From contig NZ_JASAOI010000019.1 in assembly GCF_029953285.1 (NCBI RefSeq), forward strand, positions 62,001 through 126,000: a stretch of DNA of 64,000 bases, read 5' to 3'. Source of the DNA: Yinghuangia seranimata. Lineage in GTDB: Bacteria > Actinomycetota > Actinomycetes > Streptomycetales > Streptomycetaceae. A program made the translations under genes and the position numbers. Below, one piece after another: positions 23,781 through 52,148 of this stretch. Each line of letters opens with the position of its first letter. Position 1 is the stretch's first letter. The notes under the pieces are model-generated. The model made no database searches. It was given only the letters and a program-made list of their open reading frames with translations, and was not told the DNA's origin.

Positions 23781-24030
23781 TGTGGCGTGAGCCCCGTCAG
23801 CTTGTCCTACCTTCCAAGCGTGGCTTCGAGCCGATCATTCGTAGGATCGGCGGGCCCAGGGGTTCCGGGTATGGCTGTGAGCTTGTCGCCGCTGGATGGC
23901 TCAAAAGACTTGGCCGCCCGGAGCCCCGCGACGACTCGACCGCTAATTGGGAGAAGCGACTCGATCGCTGTGTAGGACAACGTCGGCGAGGTCGTCCGCG
24001 GGACTGTTGCGTGTCGGCGAGCTGGCGGAG
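23780..24030 (+). ncRNA. Candidate IS110 left-end non-coding (bridge) RNA region
   Basis: About 250 non-coding bases directly upstream of the IS110 transposase, containing a GCCGATC/GATCGGC stem-loop (23830-23851). IS110-group elements carry their bridge RNA in the left-end region 5' of the recombinase gene. The exact ends and guide loops are not resolved here. Confidence 0.35.
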
Positions 24031-24036
24031 GTGACC

Positions 24037-25227
24037 GTGCCCAAGCTCTGGGCCGGAGTGGACATCGGCAAGGAACACCACCACTGCGTGGTGGTCGACG
24101 CGCAAGGCGAACGGCTGCTGTCGCGCCGGGTCGCCAACGACGAGCCGGCTCTGCTGGAACTGATCGTCGACGTCCTGGCTCTCTCGGACGACGTGCTGTG
24201 GGCGGTGGACATCAACCACGGCGGCGCCGCCCTGCTGATCGGGTTGCTGCTCGGCCACGACCAGCCGATGGTCTATCTCACCGGCCTCGCGGTGCATCAG
24301 GCGTCCGCCGCCTACCGCGGCCAAGGCAAGACGGACGCCAAGGACGCATTCGTCATCGCCGACCAGGCCCGCATGCGCAAGGACCTCGGCGTGCTGCGGC
24401 CCGGCGACGCGATCGCCATCGACCTGCGGATCCTGGTCCGGCGCCGCACCGACCTGGTCAACGACCGCACCCGTCAGATCAACCGGCTCCGCGAGCAACT
24501 CCTGGAGATATTCCCGGCGTTGGAACGCGCCCTGGCCCTGACGAACAAGGGCCCGGTACTCCTGCTGACCGGCTGCCAGACGCCGGCCGCCATCCGCCGC
24601 AGCGGCGCGAAGCGCATCGAGACGTGGCTGAAGAACCGCAGAGTGAAGAACGCCGGCGCCGTCGCGCACGCCGCGGTCGAAGGCGCCAAGGCCCAGCACA
24701 CGGTGCTGCCCGGCGAGCAGCTGGCCGCCGGGATGGTCGCCCGGCTCGCAAAGGGCGTGCTCGCTCTCGAAGACGAGATCGCGGAGCTCGACGCCCCCCA
24801 TCGAGGCCCGGTTTCACGGCACCCGCACGCCGAGGTGATCCGCAGCCTGCCCGGCATGGGCGCCATGCTCGGCGCCACGTTCATCGCCGCCACCGGCGGC
24901 GACATGGACGCGTTCGGCACGCCCGACCGCCTCGCCGCCTTCGCGGGCCTGGCACCGGTGCCACGCGACTCCGGCCGGGTCAGCGGCAACATGCGCCGAC
25001 CACGTCGTTATCACCGTGGACTGCTGCGCGCGTTCTATCTCTCCGCGATGGCCAGCCTGCGGACATGCCCAACCTCACGGGCCTACTACCAACGGAAGCG
25101 CGACGAAGGGAAAGGCCACAAGCAGGCCGTGCTCTCACTCGCACGACGCAGCGCCAACGTCCTGTGGGCAATGCTCCGCGACGGAACGGCCTACCGAACA
25201 GCCCCGCAACTCCCAGCAGCAGCTTGA
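24037..25227 (+). CDS. IS110-family transposase (DEDD recombinase)
   Basis: A 396-residue intact transposase. The N-terminal RuvC-like DEDD domain shows WAGVDIGKEHH at the start and GKTDAKDA near residue 100. The C-terminal Tnp20 domain shows IRSLPGMGAMLGATFIAATGG and FAGLAPVPRDSG with RYHRGLLRAFYLSA. GTG 24037 has GGAG at a 6-base distance; the longer frame to 23947 is not part of the family. The long non-coding leader fits the IS110 group, whose recombinases are guided by a bridge RNA. AATTGGGAG near 23945 and CATTGGGAAG near 25237 may be related end sequences. Confidence 0.92.
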   Translation: MPKLWAGVDIGKEHHHCVVVDAQGERLLSRRVANDEPALLELIVDVLALSDDVLWAVDINHGGAALLIGLLLGHDQPMVYLTGLAVHQASAAYRGQGKTDAKDAFVIADQARMRKDLGVLRPGDAIAIDLRILVRRRTDLVNDRTRQINRLREQLLEIFPALERALALTNKGPVLLLTGCQTPAAIRRSGAKRIETWLKNRRVKNAGAVAHAAVEGAKAQHTVLPGEQLAAGMVARLAKGVLALEDEIAELDAPHRGPVSRHPHAEVIRSLPGMGAMLGATFIAATGGDMDAFGTPDRLAAFAGLAPVPRDSGRVSGNMRRPRRYHRGLLRAFYLSAMASLRTCPTSRAYYQRKRDEGKGHKQAVLSLARRSANVLWAMLRDGTAYRTAPQLPAAA

Positions 25228-47193: not shown

Positions 47194-47708
47194 GGGGCTC
47201 CCCTGGGATCGGGAGTGTTCACGCCGGGCTCGGCCCGGGCGGTCGCCGTCGCGGACACCGTGATCTCGTGGACCCCGGCCAGATGCAGGAGTTGCGTGCG
47301 GGTGGTGACGGTGACCGTCACGGTCACCTCGTCCCCTGCGACGGCCACGGTTCCGGTGGCGCCTGCGGCAGCGAGTGCGGTCTCGGCGGCGGCTCGAGCG
47401 CGGGTCGCGTCCAGCAGGGGGCCGGTGTGGTCGCGGACCCAGGCGGGGCTGAGGGCTTGGGCTCCCGAGCGGGCGGCTTCCTGGGCCTCGTCCAGCGCGC
47501 GGGTCTTGGCCGCCAGCGCCGTCCCGCCGTCGAGCACCAGCCCGGCCACCAGCAGAAGACCGGCCATCAATGCGGCGACGAACGCGGTGATCTGCCCGCG
47601 CTCGTCCTGGCGCAGGCGCTGCGCCCACGTGGCCGCGCGGCGGCCCCGGTTCATATCTGGGGCCCTGCACCGGGCGGGCCTTCTGCAACGCGTCGACGGA
47701 GAAGTCAT
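47190..47708 (-). CDS. TadG-like pilus assembly protein
   Basis: A 172-residue protein with a basic start, then DERGQITAFVAALMAGLLLVAG with one membrane helix, a conserved LDGGTALAAKTRALDEAQEAARSGAQAL segment and a beta-rich C-terminus (TVTVTVTTRTQLLHLAG). This is the Tad/TadG-related type common in actinobacterial pilus loci. The start at 47708 is preferred because without the inserted element it would overlap the tadE stop (ATGA); ATG 47654 is an alternative. Its stop overlaps the LysM-BTAD start. Confidence 0.82.
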   Translation of the reverse strand: MTSPSTRCRRPARCRAPDMNRGRRAATWAQRLRQDERGQITAFVAALMAGLLLVAGLVLDGGTALAAKTRALDEAQEAARSGAQALSPAWVRDHTGPLLDATRARAAAETALAAAGATGTVAVAGDEVTVTVTVTTRTQLLHLAGVHEITVSATATARAEPGVNTPDPRGAP

Positions 47709-47716
47709 CGCACTGC

Positions 47717-47724
47717 CTGAAGTG
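47717..47724 (+). other. Left attachment core (attL)
   Basis: CTGAAGTG, identical to 51114-51121, followed by the left recombinase-arm-like TCGTGAGTTTG. Confidence 0.55.
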
Positions 47725-47810
47725 TCGTGAGTTTGTTAGTCCCGAACAGCTCCTGGTCCGGTGTTGTTCCTGGTGGGCGGGGGTTCGCTCGCTTGCAGTC
47801 AGATTCCGAA

Positions 47811-47835
47811 CTTCCGTCGGAATTCCTGACGGAAG
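47811..47835 (+). promoter_or_regulatory. Hairpin and promoter region of the recombinase operon
   Basis: CTTCCGTC (47811-47818) and GACGGAAG (47828-47835) form an 8-bp stem with a 9-base loop; a -10-like TATAGG follows at about 47841, 40 bp before the first gene. Confidence 0.4.
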
Positions 47836-47881
47836 CCCGGTATAGGTGATGCAACACCGCCGCGAATGAACCGAGGTGGAG

Positions 47882-48964
47882 ATGACTCTCGGGGTTGTCC
47901 GGTCGATGCGCCCGGTCAGACGCGCACGGACCGCTCAGGAGCTCGAGGACTTCGAGCAGGAACTCGTCGACCAGTACGCGTTGGCAGCGGCGGGTGCTGG
48001 CTCGGCTGACGGCACCGTCGCCGCCGAACGCGCCACACTGATCGAGTTCGTCCGATTCCTCGGACGTCCGGTGTGGACGGCCGGGCCCGAGGACGCGGAC
48101 CGGTTCCTGGTGCACCTGCGGCAGCATCGCCGACAGGCCCGGAATACTGTGCGCGGCAAGGCTGCGACCCTCGCCCGCTTCTACGCCTTCCTGATCGAGC
48201 GGTACCAGGGCGAGATTCACGCAGCGACCGACTTCGTCGTGCTCCAGCCCATCGACGAGTTCAACAGGCCGAGCCCGCCGACGCACGGCGCGGGCCCGGT
48301 CCCGCCCAGCGATCAGGAGGTCGAGACGCTGTTCTCCCAGTGGCGCGAAGCGCTCCCGGAGACGCGCAAGTACCTTCCTGCCGCTCGGGATTACCTCGCC
48401 GCGTCGCTGTGGCGACGTGCCGGCCTGAGGATCAACGAGAGCGCCATGCTGGACCTGCGCGACTGGCGCCCCGACCTCGGGAGTGCGGGCAAGCTTCACG
48501 TGCGGTTCGGCAAGGGCAACCGCGGCCGCGGTCCGAAGACCCGCTTGGTGCCGGCCATCAACGGGGTCGACCGGCTCATGGAATGGTGGCTCGCCGAAGT
48601 GCGCCACCAGTTCGGCGGCGACTGGTCCGACCCGGACGCGCCGCTGCTGCCCAGTGAGCGCCGGGACGCTTCCGGCCGCTGCGGCCGGATCGGCACCGAC
48701 GCGCTGCGCTCGGGCTTCACCTCGGCGGTGACCATGTGGCTGCCGGACTGGGACGGGCGGCTGACCCCGCACGGCATGCGCCATTACTGCGCCTCCTCGC
48801 TGTACGGGCGCGGCGTGGACCTGAAGGCCATCCAGGACCTGCTCGGCCACGAGTGGCTGTCCACGACCACGCGCTACATCCATGTCCGGGACGATCACAT
48901 CGAGCACGCCTGGGAGTCGGCGAACCGACGCGTCGCCGAACGCCTCGGCGGGGCAGGAAGGTGA
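47882..48964 (+). CDS. Tyrosine recombinase (site-specific integrase)
   Basis: A 360-residue phage-integrase-family recombinase with a SAM-like N-terminal DNA-binding domain (residues 40-125) and a complete catalytic domain: Arg in RRAGLRINESAML near 180, HGMRH near 298, GHEWLSTTTRYIHV (with the Tyr nucleophile near 332). ATG 47882 lies 7 bases after GAGG; GTG 47876 is an alternative. It is the first gene of the element and probably performs excision and integration. Confidence 0.92.
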   Translation: MTLGVVRSMRPVRRARTAQELEDFEQELVDQYALAAAGAGSADGTVAAERATLIEFVRFLGRPVWTAGPEDADRFLVHLRQHRRQARNTVRGKAATLARFYAFLIERYQGEIHAATDFVVLQPIDEFNRPSPPTHGAGPVPPSDQEVETLFSQWREALPETRKYLPAARDYLAASLWRRAGLRINESAMLDLRDWRPDLGSAGKLHVRFGKGNRGRGPKTRLVPAINGVDRLMEWWLAEVRHQFGGDWSDPDAPLLPSERRDASGRCGRIGTDALRSGFTSAVTMWLPDWDGRLTPHGMRHYCASSLYGRGVDLKAIQDLLGHEWLSTTTRYIHVRDDHIEHAWESANRRVAERLGGAGR

Positions 48965-48968
48965 CCCG

Positions 48969-49304
48969 TTGCGCTGGAACCTGCGGATGGCCGCAGCCGA
49001 ACGCGGCATCTGGAAGTCCGCCGAGATGCGCCGCCTGCTGGCGGCATCAGGCATGGAGATCAGCCAGGGCAAGATGTCGGCGCTGTGGACCGGCACCCCC
49101 ACCACCGTCCGCCTCGACGACCTCGACGTGATCTGCCACGTGCTGCAATGCACCCCGACCGACCTGCTGATCCCGGAACCGGACAAGGTCGCCGCCCGCC
49201 GCCCGGCACAACCCGGCAGCGAAGCCACCGCAGACCGGACCGGCACCGACCACACGGTCGTCGCACCGAGGTTCGGGCGCAACCGCTCGGCGCCGCCGCT
49301 GTGA
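48969..49304 (+). CDS. XRE-type helix-turn-helix protein of the element
   Basis: A 111-residue protein: TTG 48969 gives RWNLRMAAAERGIWKS, then MRRLLAASGMEISQGKMSAL and TTVRLDDLDVICHVLQCTPT with DLLIPEPDKV, a Cro/C1-like domain in residues 5-75. AGGAAGG precedes the TTG by 8 bases; ATG 48987 is an alternative. It lies between the two recombinases, five bases after the first and overlapping the next by four. It probably controls the element or helps recombinase directionality. Confidence 0.82.
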   Translation: MRWNLRMAAAERGIWKSAEMRRLLAASGMEISQGKMSALWTGTPTTVRLDDLDVICHVLQCTPTDLLIPEPDKVAARRPAQPGSEATADRTGTDHTVVAPRFGRNRSAPPL

Positions 49305-51016
49305 GCAAGCCCTGGAAACGCCTGTGCGTGGTCTGCGGCGCCCACCCAATCGCCATGCCCCGCGTGGACTACTGCTTCGGCTGCTGGCCCGGCGGACCGG
49401 TGGCGACGCCGCCGTGCCTGCGCTGCAGCTCGCGCAAGGACTACTACGCATCCGGCCTGTGCGAACGCTGCCACCCCTCCGCGGTCCCCAAGGTCGACTC
49501 CTGCCTCGACTGCCTGGCCTGGGGCGCGACACGGCACTGGTCGTGGCTGTGCCACGGCTGCCGCAGCTGGCGCCGCGAGAACCATGTCATCGATCCTTGC
49601 CCGAGTTGTCGACGCACCCTCACGCTCGGCCAACACGGCGTCTGCCGCCTGTGCCGACGTCAGGCACGGTCGAACCGCTCGCGCCGCGGCCGTCTCGACA
49701 CCGCGGCCGCGAACCTCCACGGCCAACAGCTCTTCATCGCCGACCTGTTCGGCCCGCGACCCGCCACCGCAAGCCCACCACCGCCGGTCCCCACGCCACC
49801 CCCGGAACCGATTCCCACCGCCCCGACTCATCAGCAGCTGGCCTTGTTCACGGTCTCCCGGAACCTGCGTGCGCACGGCCGCCGGGGCCTGCCGCCTCCA
49901 CCCCGGCCCGCCTTGGCCGCTGCCCTCGAAGCGCACCTGCGCGACCACGCCGAAACCCACGGCTGGCCGCCTCGGTCCGCCGACGAAGTCCGCCATGCGC
50001 TGCGGGTCCTCCTCGGTCTCCAGGACGAGCCCGGAGCGTTGATCAAGGCAACCGAGGTCACGCCGCTGACCGGCATCGGGCTGCCTGCCCGGCGCACCCT
50101 GGAAGTCCTCGCCTCCGCGGGCATGCTCGACGACGACCGCCCGTCCAACGTCGCCCGCTGGTTCGAGGCGAAGATCGCCCACCTGCCCGCCCCGATGGCC
50201 GACGAACTGCGCATCTGGTTCGAAGTCATGCACTGTGGCAGCACCACACCACCGCGCCGTCGGCCCCGCACCGACAACGCGATCTACCTCCACACCCGCT
50301 GGGCCCTGCCGCCCCTGGAGCAGTGGGCGCACGAGGGCCACACCTCCCTGCGGGAGATCGCCCGCGCGGACATCCACGCGGCACTGCCACCATCCGGCAA
50401 CCCCAGGGCGACCCGCGGCCAGGCCCTCAAATCCATCTTCCGCGTGCTCGCCGGCAAGAAGGTCCTGTTCACCGACCCCACCAGCCGGATCCACACCGGC
50501 TACATCCCCTCCAGCCAGCCCCTCCCCGTCGAACTCGCCCTCGTGCGCGAGGGATTGGACTCTCCCGACCCCGCCCGCGCGGCCCTGGTCGCCCTGATGG
50601 CCTACCACGCACTGCGCTCGACTCAACTGAGAATGATCGCCCTCAGCGACGTCTACGACGGCCGGCTCCACATCGAAGACCGCGACATCCCCCTCGCCGA
50701 ACCCGCACGCGCGCGCATCGCCGCCTACCTCGACCACCGCACACGCACCTGGCCGCGCACCGCCAACCCCTACCTCTTCGTCAACACCCGCAGTGCCCCC
50801 CGCACCACCCCCGTCGGACCCCGCTGGGTCCGCCTGATCATCGGCCCGCGCATCAGCCCGCAAGCCCTGCGCGAGGACCGCATCCTCGACGAAGCCCGAG
50901 CCACCGGCGGCGACGCCCGCCGCCTGTGCGACCTGTTCGGCCTGAGCATCAGCGCCGCCACCCGCTACACCGACAGCCTCGGCCACCCCCAACTCGAACA
51001 CCTCGACGGCAACTGA
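49301..51016 (+). CDS. Zinc-ribbon recombinase-like protein (second element recombinase)
   Basis: A 571-residue protein starting at GTG 49301 (GTGA overlap with the HTH gene). The first 140 residues carry four or five pairs of CxxC (CVVCGAHP, CFGCW, CLRCSS, CERCH, CLDC, CHGC, CPSCRR, CRLC), likely zinc ribbons. The rest resembles a tyrosine recombinase core (LMAYHALRSTQLRMIALSD near 440, SPQALREDR and RYTDSLGH at the end), but the usual HxxR His is Gln. It may be a catalytically weak DNA-binding partner of the first recombinase. Confidence 0.8.
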   Translation: MSKPWKRLCVVCGAHPIAMPRVDYCFGCWPGGPVATPPCLRCSSRKDYYASGLCERCHPSAVPKVDSCLDCLAWGATRHWSWLCHGCRSWRRENHVIDPCPSCRRTLTLGQHGVCRLCRRQARSNRSRRGRLDTAAANLHGQQLFIADLFGPRPATASPPPPVPTPPPEPIPTAPTHQQLALFTVSRNLRAHGRRGLPPPPRPALAAALEAHLRDHAETHGWPPRSADEVRHALRVLLGLQDEPGALIKATEVTPLTGIGLPARRTLEVLASAGMLDDDRPSNVARWFEAKIAHLPAPMADELRIWFEVMHCGSTTPPRRRPRTDNAIYLHTRWALPPLEQWAHEGHTSLREIARADIHAALPPSGNPRATRGQALKSIFRVLAGKKVLFTDPTSRIHTGYIPSSQPLPVELALVREGLDSPDPARAALVALMAYHALRSTQLRMIALSDVYDGRLHIEDRDIPLAEPARARIAAYLDHRTRTWPRTANPYLFVNTRSAPRTTPVGPRWVRLIIGPRISPQALREDRILDEARATGGDARRLCDLFGLSISAATRYTDSLGHPQLEHLDGN

Positions 51017-51047
51017 CCCCCCGCACCGGTTCCGCGAACTGAAGCAC

Positions 51048-51599
51048 TCAGACACGGCCTTCACCACCGCCTACACGTGAGTTCGCTCCGTCGAACACGT
51101 CAGAATTCGCGAACTGAAGTGCAACGCCCCGATGCTGGTCGAGGACGCTGCTCGCCTGGCCTGTCAGGGTGCGGTGACCTGGCACGCCCAGCGCGCCCAT
51201 CTCCGACAGGGAGACGGTGCACGACACCGTCACCCGCACGTGCGCACCCGGCGCGAACCCGGCGGTGTCCACGGCCACCGCCAGACTCGAGCACGACACC
51301 CCCGCGCCGTCCAGTGCCCGCCGTGCGGCATCGCGTGCGGCCTGATCGGCGGCGCTCGGGCTGCGGGTCAGCGACGCGGCGCGGGCTGCCTGGTGCGCAG
51401 CGTCGTCGACCAGCCCGCGCGCCGAGGCGAACCGCCCCACCGTCACCACGAACAGGAGCAGCAGAACCAACACCGGTGCCAAAAGGACGAGTTCCATTGC
51501 GGCTGAGCCGCGCTCGTCCCGCCACAACCCGGCTGCCTGCCCCCGTACGAGGCGCCGTCGCAGGGGGGCGGTCGGAGACTTGATGGCGGCAGGGGGCAT
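51048..51599 (-). CDS. TadE-like pilus protein, C-terminus altered by element insertion
   Basis: A 183-residue TadE-type protein: WRDERGSAAMELVLLAPVLV with one membrane helix (LVLLLLFVVTVGRF), HQAARAASLTRSPSAADQAA, then a periplasmic-like domain with CSS and SCTVSLSEMG cysteines. The family end is at VLDQHRGVALQ; the last 20 or so residues (FANSDVFDGANSRVGGG) come from the right end of the inserted element. ATG 51599 is the start used. It was coupled to tadG before the insertion. Confidence 0.8.
   Translation of the reverse strand: MPPAAIKSPTAPLRRRLVRGQAAGLWRDERGSAAMELVLLAPVLVLLLLFVVTVGRFASARGLVDDAAHQAARAASLTRSPSAADQAARDAARRALDGAGVSCSSLAVAVDTAGFAPGAHVRVTVSCTVSLSEMGALGVPGHRTLTGQASSVLDQHRGVALQFANSDVFDGANSRVGGGEGRV
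51114..51121 (+). other. Right attachment core (attR)
   Basis: CTGAAGTG preceded by CAGAATTCGCGAA, an inverted match to the left arm. A second similar site (GCGAACTGAAGCA) lies just inside near 51034. Confidence 0.55.
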
Positions 51600-51617: not shown

Positions 51618-52148
51618 ATGCCCATACCTGATATGGAATGTGTATGTGTGCTGTGTCGTCCCGCGGATGCCAGGGCTGCAGAGCCTCCGTGGCTCTCGGT
51701 ACTCGGGGACCGGCTCGCCGCGGCGGTGCGCGACTACGGCTGGACCGTCGTCGCCGCGCAGGGCGGGGAACAGCAGCCTGCGTTCGCCCACACCGTGGGC
51801 ATTCACCACACGCTGCGCAGACCGGAGTTGGCGTTGCTCGGGCTTCCGGTCGAGGTGATGCATCCGCTGCTGAACGACGTCGCGTCCGGGATCCGCGACG
51901 GCGCGCCGACGGCGGACGGTACTCGCGTCGAAGGGCTGCTCGCCGGAGGCCTCCCGCTCGCGCTGAAGCAGGTGGACGCCGGCTGGTACCCGGTGCTGTT
52001 CGGGTCGGTTCTTCACTTCCACCGCACCGCGGTTCCGGTACTCCAGGTGGTGTGGACCGACCCTGCCGGGTTGTTCCCTTGGGACGAGGGCTTCGCGCCG
52101 AAGTGGCTCGCCGAGCAGCCTCGCCTGTGGATCCCGCCAGGCCGATAG
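51618..52148 (+). CDS. DUF4262 domain protein
   Basis: A 176-residue protein: CVLCRPADARAAEPPWLSVL, then DYGWTVVAAQGGEQQPAFAH with TVGIHHTLRRPELALLGLPV and a C-terminal VVWTDPAGLFPWDEGF. This is the complete DUF4262 fold. It is oriented against the pilus genes, between the two tadE genes, which suggests a separate insertion. The family is common in actinomycetes and has no known function. Confidence 0.85.
   Translation: MPIPDMECVCVLCRPADARAAEPPWLSVLGDRLAAAVRDYGWTVVAAQGGEQQPAFAHTVGIHHTLRRPELALLGLPVEVMHPLLNDVASGIRDGAPTADGTRVEGLLAGGLPLALKQVDAGWYPVLFGSVLHFHRTAVPVLQVVWTDPAGLFPWDEGFAPKWLAEQPRLWIPPGR

Follow-up and report, generated by a model that had tools for sequence, protein, structure and literature searches.

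A three-gene tyrosine-recombinase element at the tadE-tadG junction of Yinghuangia seranimata and its relatives in Tad-pilus, conjugative T4SS and ssb loci

The stretch of Yinghuangia seranimata DNA analysed here (the window, 64,000 nucleotides) carries a minus-strand Tad operon (57.7-44.0 kb) with genes for CpaB, CpaE, TadA, TadB, TadC, a pilin, two TadE proteins, TadG and a LysM-BTAD protein; tadE and tadG were named from Pfam and the remaining genes from homology or reading. A 3,397-bp plus-strand element (47723-51119, right footprint included), whose ends were aligned with the left and right ends of relatives, separated tadE from tadG and was oriented against the operon. The tadE gene as now read occupied positions 51599 to 51048 of the minus strand (Pfam TadE, PF07811), and tadG, the next gene after the element in the operon sense, positions 47708 to 47190 of the same strand (Pfam Tad, PF13400), with its start just past the left end of the element. 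Three plus-strand genes lay between these two minus-strand genes, in agreement with the initial annotation, which had placed a tyrosine-recombinase element exactly at this junction of the pilus operon. Another plus-strand ORF, DUF4262-like by eye, ran antisense within the operon between the two tadE genes (51618-52148).

The genes of the element followed the order R1, small HTH protein and ZR. R1 (47876..48964, plus strand; 362 aa) matched PF00589 (E 3e-17), and the expected catalytic residues R185, K213, H299, R302, H325, and Y334, whose roles were assigned by inspection, did not vary across 13 aligned sequences; judged by its sequence, R1 is an intact tyrosine recombinase. The small Cro/C1-type HTH protein (48969..49304, plus strand, approximate start) belonged to HTH_26 (PF13443). 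ZR (49301..51016, plus strand; 571 aa) combined an N-terminal array of eight invariant CxxC pairs (residues 9-118) with a C-terminal degenerate tyrosine-recombinase fold. No Pfam family matched ZR; its C-terminal half matched XerA in sequence (E 0.004), and XerA 5hxy was the best Foldseek match of the same half (E 4e-8), the structure model having a pLDDT of 75 and a pTM of 0.35. As only the Arg of HxxR and the Tyr (Y556) of the catalytic set were conserved, and not the motif-I Arg or either His position, ZR probably does not act as a recombinase on its own. The third gene of the trio, called a zinc-ribbon recombinase in the initial annotation, is recombinase-like by fold and lacks conservation of these three positions.

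At the left junction, the target core CTGAAG (47717..47722), which the junction model assigns to the target, preceded the element end TGTCGTGAGTTTG.. (47723..47740, plus strand), which is imperfectly inverted relative to the right end and shares ..CGYGRGTTC with relatives. The right end, CGCGAACTGAAG (51108..51119, plus strand), closed with the 6-bp footprint at 51114-51119. Direct reading gave a second copy of CGCGAACTGAAG (51032..51043, plus strand), lying 76 bp inward of the right end, and copies similar to the right end, at about 75 bp from it, were also found in the relatives L006 and L067; this end may contain two putative recombinase-binding sites. Upstream of R1, an inverted repeat was read as CTTCCGTC-ggaattcct-GACGGAAG (47811..47835), and similar sequences preceded R1 in many relatives; the HTH protein may use it as an operator. 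In the initial annotation, tadG and the LysM-BTAD gene were predicted to depend now on another promoter; a scan of both element ends with the sigma-70 consensus, which does not cover actinobacterial promoters, found no promoter or terminator.

The sequence CTGAAGTG was found twice, at 47717-47724 and 51114-51121. Core and footprint (47717-47722 and 51114-51119) were both CTGAAG in the window, which makes a plain direct-repeat reading natural there, and the TG that follows in CTGAAGTG is a chance agreement of the element end with the target arm. Cutting out 47723-51119 gave a TadE ending in ..SSVLDQHRGVALQAVR (..GVALQAVR) before the stop codon, and within GATGAC the TGA overlapped the ATG of tadG. 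This restoration, with one copy kept, had been anticipated in the initial annotation, and close relatives rejoined by the same rule when compared with natural empty sites. TadE was not truncated in the occupied state: its native part stopped at 51120 (plus the shared CTGAAG), AVR was lost, and about 20 residues coded by the element, including the final codons, were gained (FANSDVFDGANSRVGGGEGRV before the stop). In a congener (G002) the tadE-tadG pair was unbroken with a GTGA overlap (TadE 74% identical, ending ..DEHRGTR), and the two genes were uninterrupted and close or overlapping in most of the roughly 28 further genomes inspected.

Natural empty plasmid sites showed the geometry of insertion. 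The empty target consisted of a left arm, a 6-bp core and a right arm, and the occupied site of left arm, core, element, a further 6 bp (the footprint) and right arm. Four copies on Arthrobacter-type plasmids (L110, L113, L115, and L116) lay between a VirB4-like gene and a VirD4 gene. The joined VirB4-VirD4 flanks of L110 were found in one place, over at least 80% of the query, in 34 plasmid records; of the five fetched, four had a 4-bp gene overlap at the insertion point, and the fifth was annotated otherwise but had the same sequence layout. All four copies were collinear codon for codon (..W-N-K-E-R/I-E-M-P-A-E..) with the empty plasmid pLDW-10 (L127) only after removal of one 6-mer, that adjoining the right end of the element. 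The same rule gave in-frame ends with ATGA, GTGA or TGATG overlaps in the window, L006, L007, L057, and these four plasmid copies, and rebuilt a collinear SSB frame in L056. The rule taken from the natural empty sites replaced joining by the longest shared string, which in L006 and L007 (GAACT, GAACTC) left the frames open but lost the ATGA overlaps. A DNA search for orthologous empty sites in Amycolatopsis returned just short weak matches.

Core and footprint differed in those relatives whose two ends were both resolved (L112, L118, L009, and L066 are not among them). Footprints recurred within subgroups (CTCACG, CCCACG, and CTTCTC) whereas left cores varied, an indication that the element often brings its right 6-mer with it and that this 6-mer is perhaps partly element-borne. 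The left junctions of both L134 and L135 bore TGTGCGAAA; in this subgroup, either the target preference or the end may be longer. Through the 6-bp rule, empty sites become predictable from sequence.

Searching about 85,000 genomes with R1 yielded 14 relatives, and tad genes adjoined the element in six. Together with further genome-search matches and plasmids, 35 clade copies had readable flanks, a sample that represents a draw and not a census. Of these, 31 were located in Tad-pilus operons (12), conjugative T4SS operons or regions (16, the nearest T4SS gene being about 2 kb off in L070 and L117) and ssb (3); the other four (L008, L072, L073, and L135) were elsewhere or unclear, L072 and L073 being broken copies. 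The tad junctions used varied: TadB-TadC (L112), TadC-Flp (L003), upstream of tadE (L009 and L118), tadE-tadG (the window, L007, L066, L067, and L134) and after tadG (L006); the Tad label of L067 and of parts of L066 was given by eye. Orientation, computed from neighbours that matched a Tad, T4SS, and SSB protein panel, was antisense in 30 of 30 loci with a panel neighbour, and none was mixed. The great majority of clade members thus occupy Tad-pilus, conjugative T4SS or ssb loci, antisense wherever scored.

An outgroup with the same gene order, R1 31-45% identical and a ZR without the matching CxxC N-terminus was found in unrelated contexts. Tad or T4SS neighbours were present in 18 of 26 clade loci, leaving out those that supplied panel queries, vs. 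1 of 15 loci in the outgroup (Fisher P = 1e-4), with L110/L113/L115/L116, L069/L109/L114, L005/L010/L068, and L066/L134 forming sets of non-independent loci. The R1 tree gathered all Tad, T4SS, and ssb copies in one clade (support 100/100), which excluded the 15 outgroup rows; inside it, Tad copies were spread over many deep lineages, and T4SS copies belonged mainly to two subclades.

The aligned cores gave a weak motif, N-T-W-S-N-N-R-Y-A in the operon sense (about 10 bits in the sample). In a leave-one-out analysis, about 123 positions per 64 kb scored at least as high as the median site, which rules out the motif as the sole target determinant, and motif-scoring positions within the tad operon occurred on both strands. 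No k-mer was shared above shuffles within 150 nt of the sites. With a weak motif and no such k-mer, site sequence accounts for neither the class of operon nor the constant orientation.

Several known systems resembled the element in part. Tn554-like pairs are known in Actinobacteria (PMC3414803), and Tn554 leaves a 6-bp footprint as cited in PMC10214605. As in the Tn554 family, an ordinary and a long tyrosine-recombinase protein share one operon, a short 6-bp footprint is left with no plain target duplication (here from empty sites and frame restoration), and copies occur on actinobacterial plasmids. That family has two catalytically complete recombinases (TnpA and TnpB), whereas here R1 alone is complete, most of the catalytic set is missing from ZR, which bears the N-terminal CxxC array, and the target is a class of operons. 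It also has a third protein, TnpC; the middle gene here matched HTH_26, and no TnpC was recognised.

The strand-biased circularizing integrative elements (SE), found only in Gammaproteobacteria, form a strand-biased circle that carries the left 6 bp, with no empty donor site (PMC10214605). They share with our element a 6-bp core from the target by the left end and a 6-bp footprint by the right end (PMC10214605), imperfect inverted ends and a protein of tyrosine-recombinase fold without the full catalytic motif (Tfp in SE, ZR here). The SE gene set intA-tfp-intB-srap is replaced here by three genes with one intact recombinase, and the SE footprint derives from the left side of the donor whereas ours appears to be conserved inside subgroups. 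The GInt and RIT elements (PMC10214605, PMC5385486) also have an operon of several recombinase-like genes, but RIT encodes three recombinases with catalytic Tyr, as against one intact recombinase, one HTH protein and one degenerate recombinase here, and GInt has four genes instead of three. Integrative mobilizable elements (IMEs) inserting into ICE transfer genes, e.g., traG, or into oriT (reviewed in PMC5704250) are likewise mobile elements nested in the conjugation genes of others; they use fixed sites and have mobilization functions, whereas here the element has no relaxase, the junctions vary and Tad pilus operons are among the targets. In the literature searched, with most subscription journals outside its reach, neither this HTH/zinc-ribbon trio nor the target bias was found described.

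Taken as a whole, these data make it likely that the element belongs to a clade of tyrosine-recombinase transposons from Actinobacteria with R1, HTH, and ZR genes, cargo in some members, a 6-bp insertion rule and a target bias towards Tad, T4SS, and ssb loci. The comparisons show that insertion keeps the 6-bp target core by the left end and leaves another 6 bp by the right end, and that the target is restored once the element and one 6-mer are removed. R1 would cut and join a circular intermediate as in Tn554 and SE elements, ZR and the HTH protein would act as DNA-binding partners or regulators, and the local motif would set the exact position only; in the window, the insertion leaves TadE almost whole.

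The initial annotation had instead regarded the junction as one precise attachment site. A conventional phage- or ICE-like integrative element with a single fixed site at the 3' end of tadE would fit the same 6-mer at both ends in the window, the exactly restored overlap and the further tadE-tadG insertions in L007, L067, L066, and L134. Close relatives of fixed-attB elements share gene and site, but here relatives with R1 about 60-70% identical used other tad junctions, T4SS junctions and ssb, with unrelated cores, and the two 6-mers of one insertion usually differed. The junction is therefore not one fixed attachment site, and a fixed-site element appears improbable. Equally improbable is a resident switch by which the trio would silence or phase-vary pilus and conjugation operons through reversible insertion, e.g., against pilus-binding phages. 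Constant antisense orientation, excision always able to restore the operon and target loci that build surface machines speak for a switch; against it stand the sporadic distribution (ZR homologues of any kind in 24 of 81 family genomes, mostly distant), the cargo genes, ssb among the targets, the empty state usual in relatives and a TadE nearly complete in sequence in the window.

Within the transposon clade that we favour, the operon bias would come either from active guidance by an element protein or from selective survival. Near-random insertion at many weak sites, with the pattern made by selection as junctions in dispensable secretion operons survive and conjugative DNA spreads the copies, has close to an even chance of being correct: the motif is weak, with its many comparable sites, no k-mer is held in common, Tad and T4SS are dispensable and insertions are located at gene ends. 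Selection accounts less readily for an outgroup that has the same trio without the pattern (1/15), for antisense orientation in 30/30 loci and for the numerous other dispensable operons that exist. Active guidance to a class of operons (Tad pili, conjugative T4SS, and plasmid-type ssb) in antisense, via the zinc-ribbon or the HTH protein and not the DNA at the insertion point, is a tentative proposal that we hold to be rather doubtful; its obvious candidate would be the CxxC array of ZR, as this is present in the clade and largely missing in the outgroup. Target choice by transposons usually rests on sequence or structure. A clade found repeatedly in pilus and DNA-transfer operons, backwards and at gene junctions, would reflect a new way of target selection or strong selection on these machines, and one small three-gene element makes guidance and selection testable.

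Other mobile DNA was also noted. Relatives were searched for in phages and viral contigs, and none was found there. A different kind of mobile gene may be present in the window, where an ORF on the plus strand (23947-25227) resembled by eye an IS110-type transposase. Contigs of 3.4-3.7 kb with little besides one element (L004, L012, and L067) are possibly collapsed multi-copy elements or circles. Several members carried genes extra to the trio behind ZR, such as HicAB-like genes (by eye) in L008/L016. In the plasmids L109 and L117, annotated metal-resistance genes (P-type ATPase and arsenate reductase) near the element, directly behind ZR, look like cargo. In support of mobility, one genome harboured two 8.9-kb copies of a relative (L134 and L135), 99.6% identical, at two loci, one of them next to a tadG-like gene and the other on a different contig that also has a ParB-like gene.
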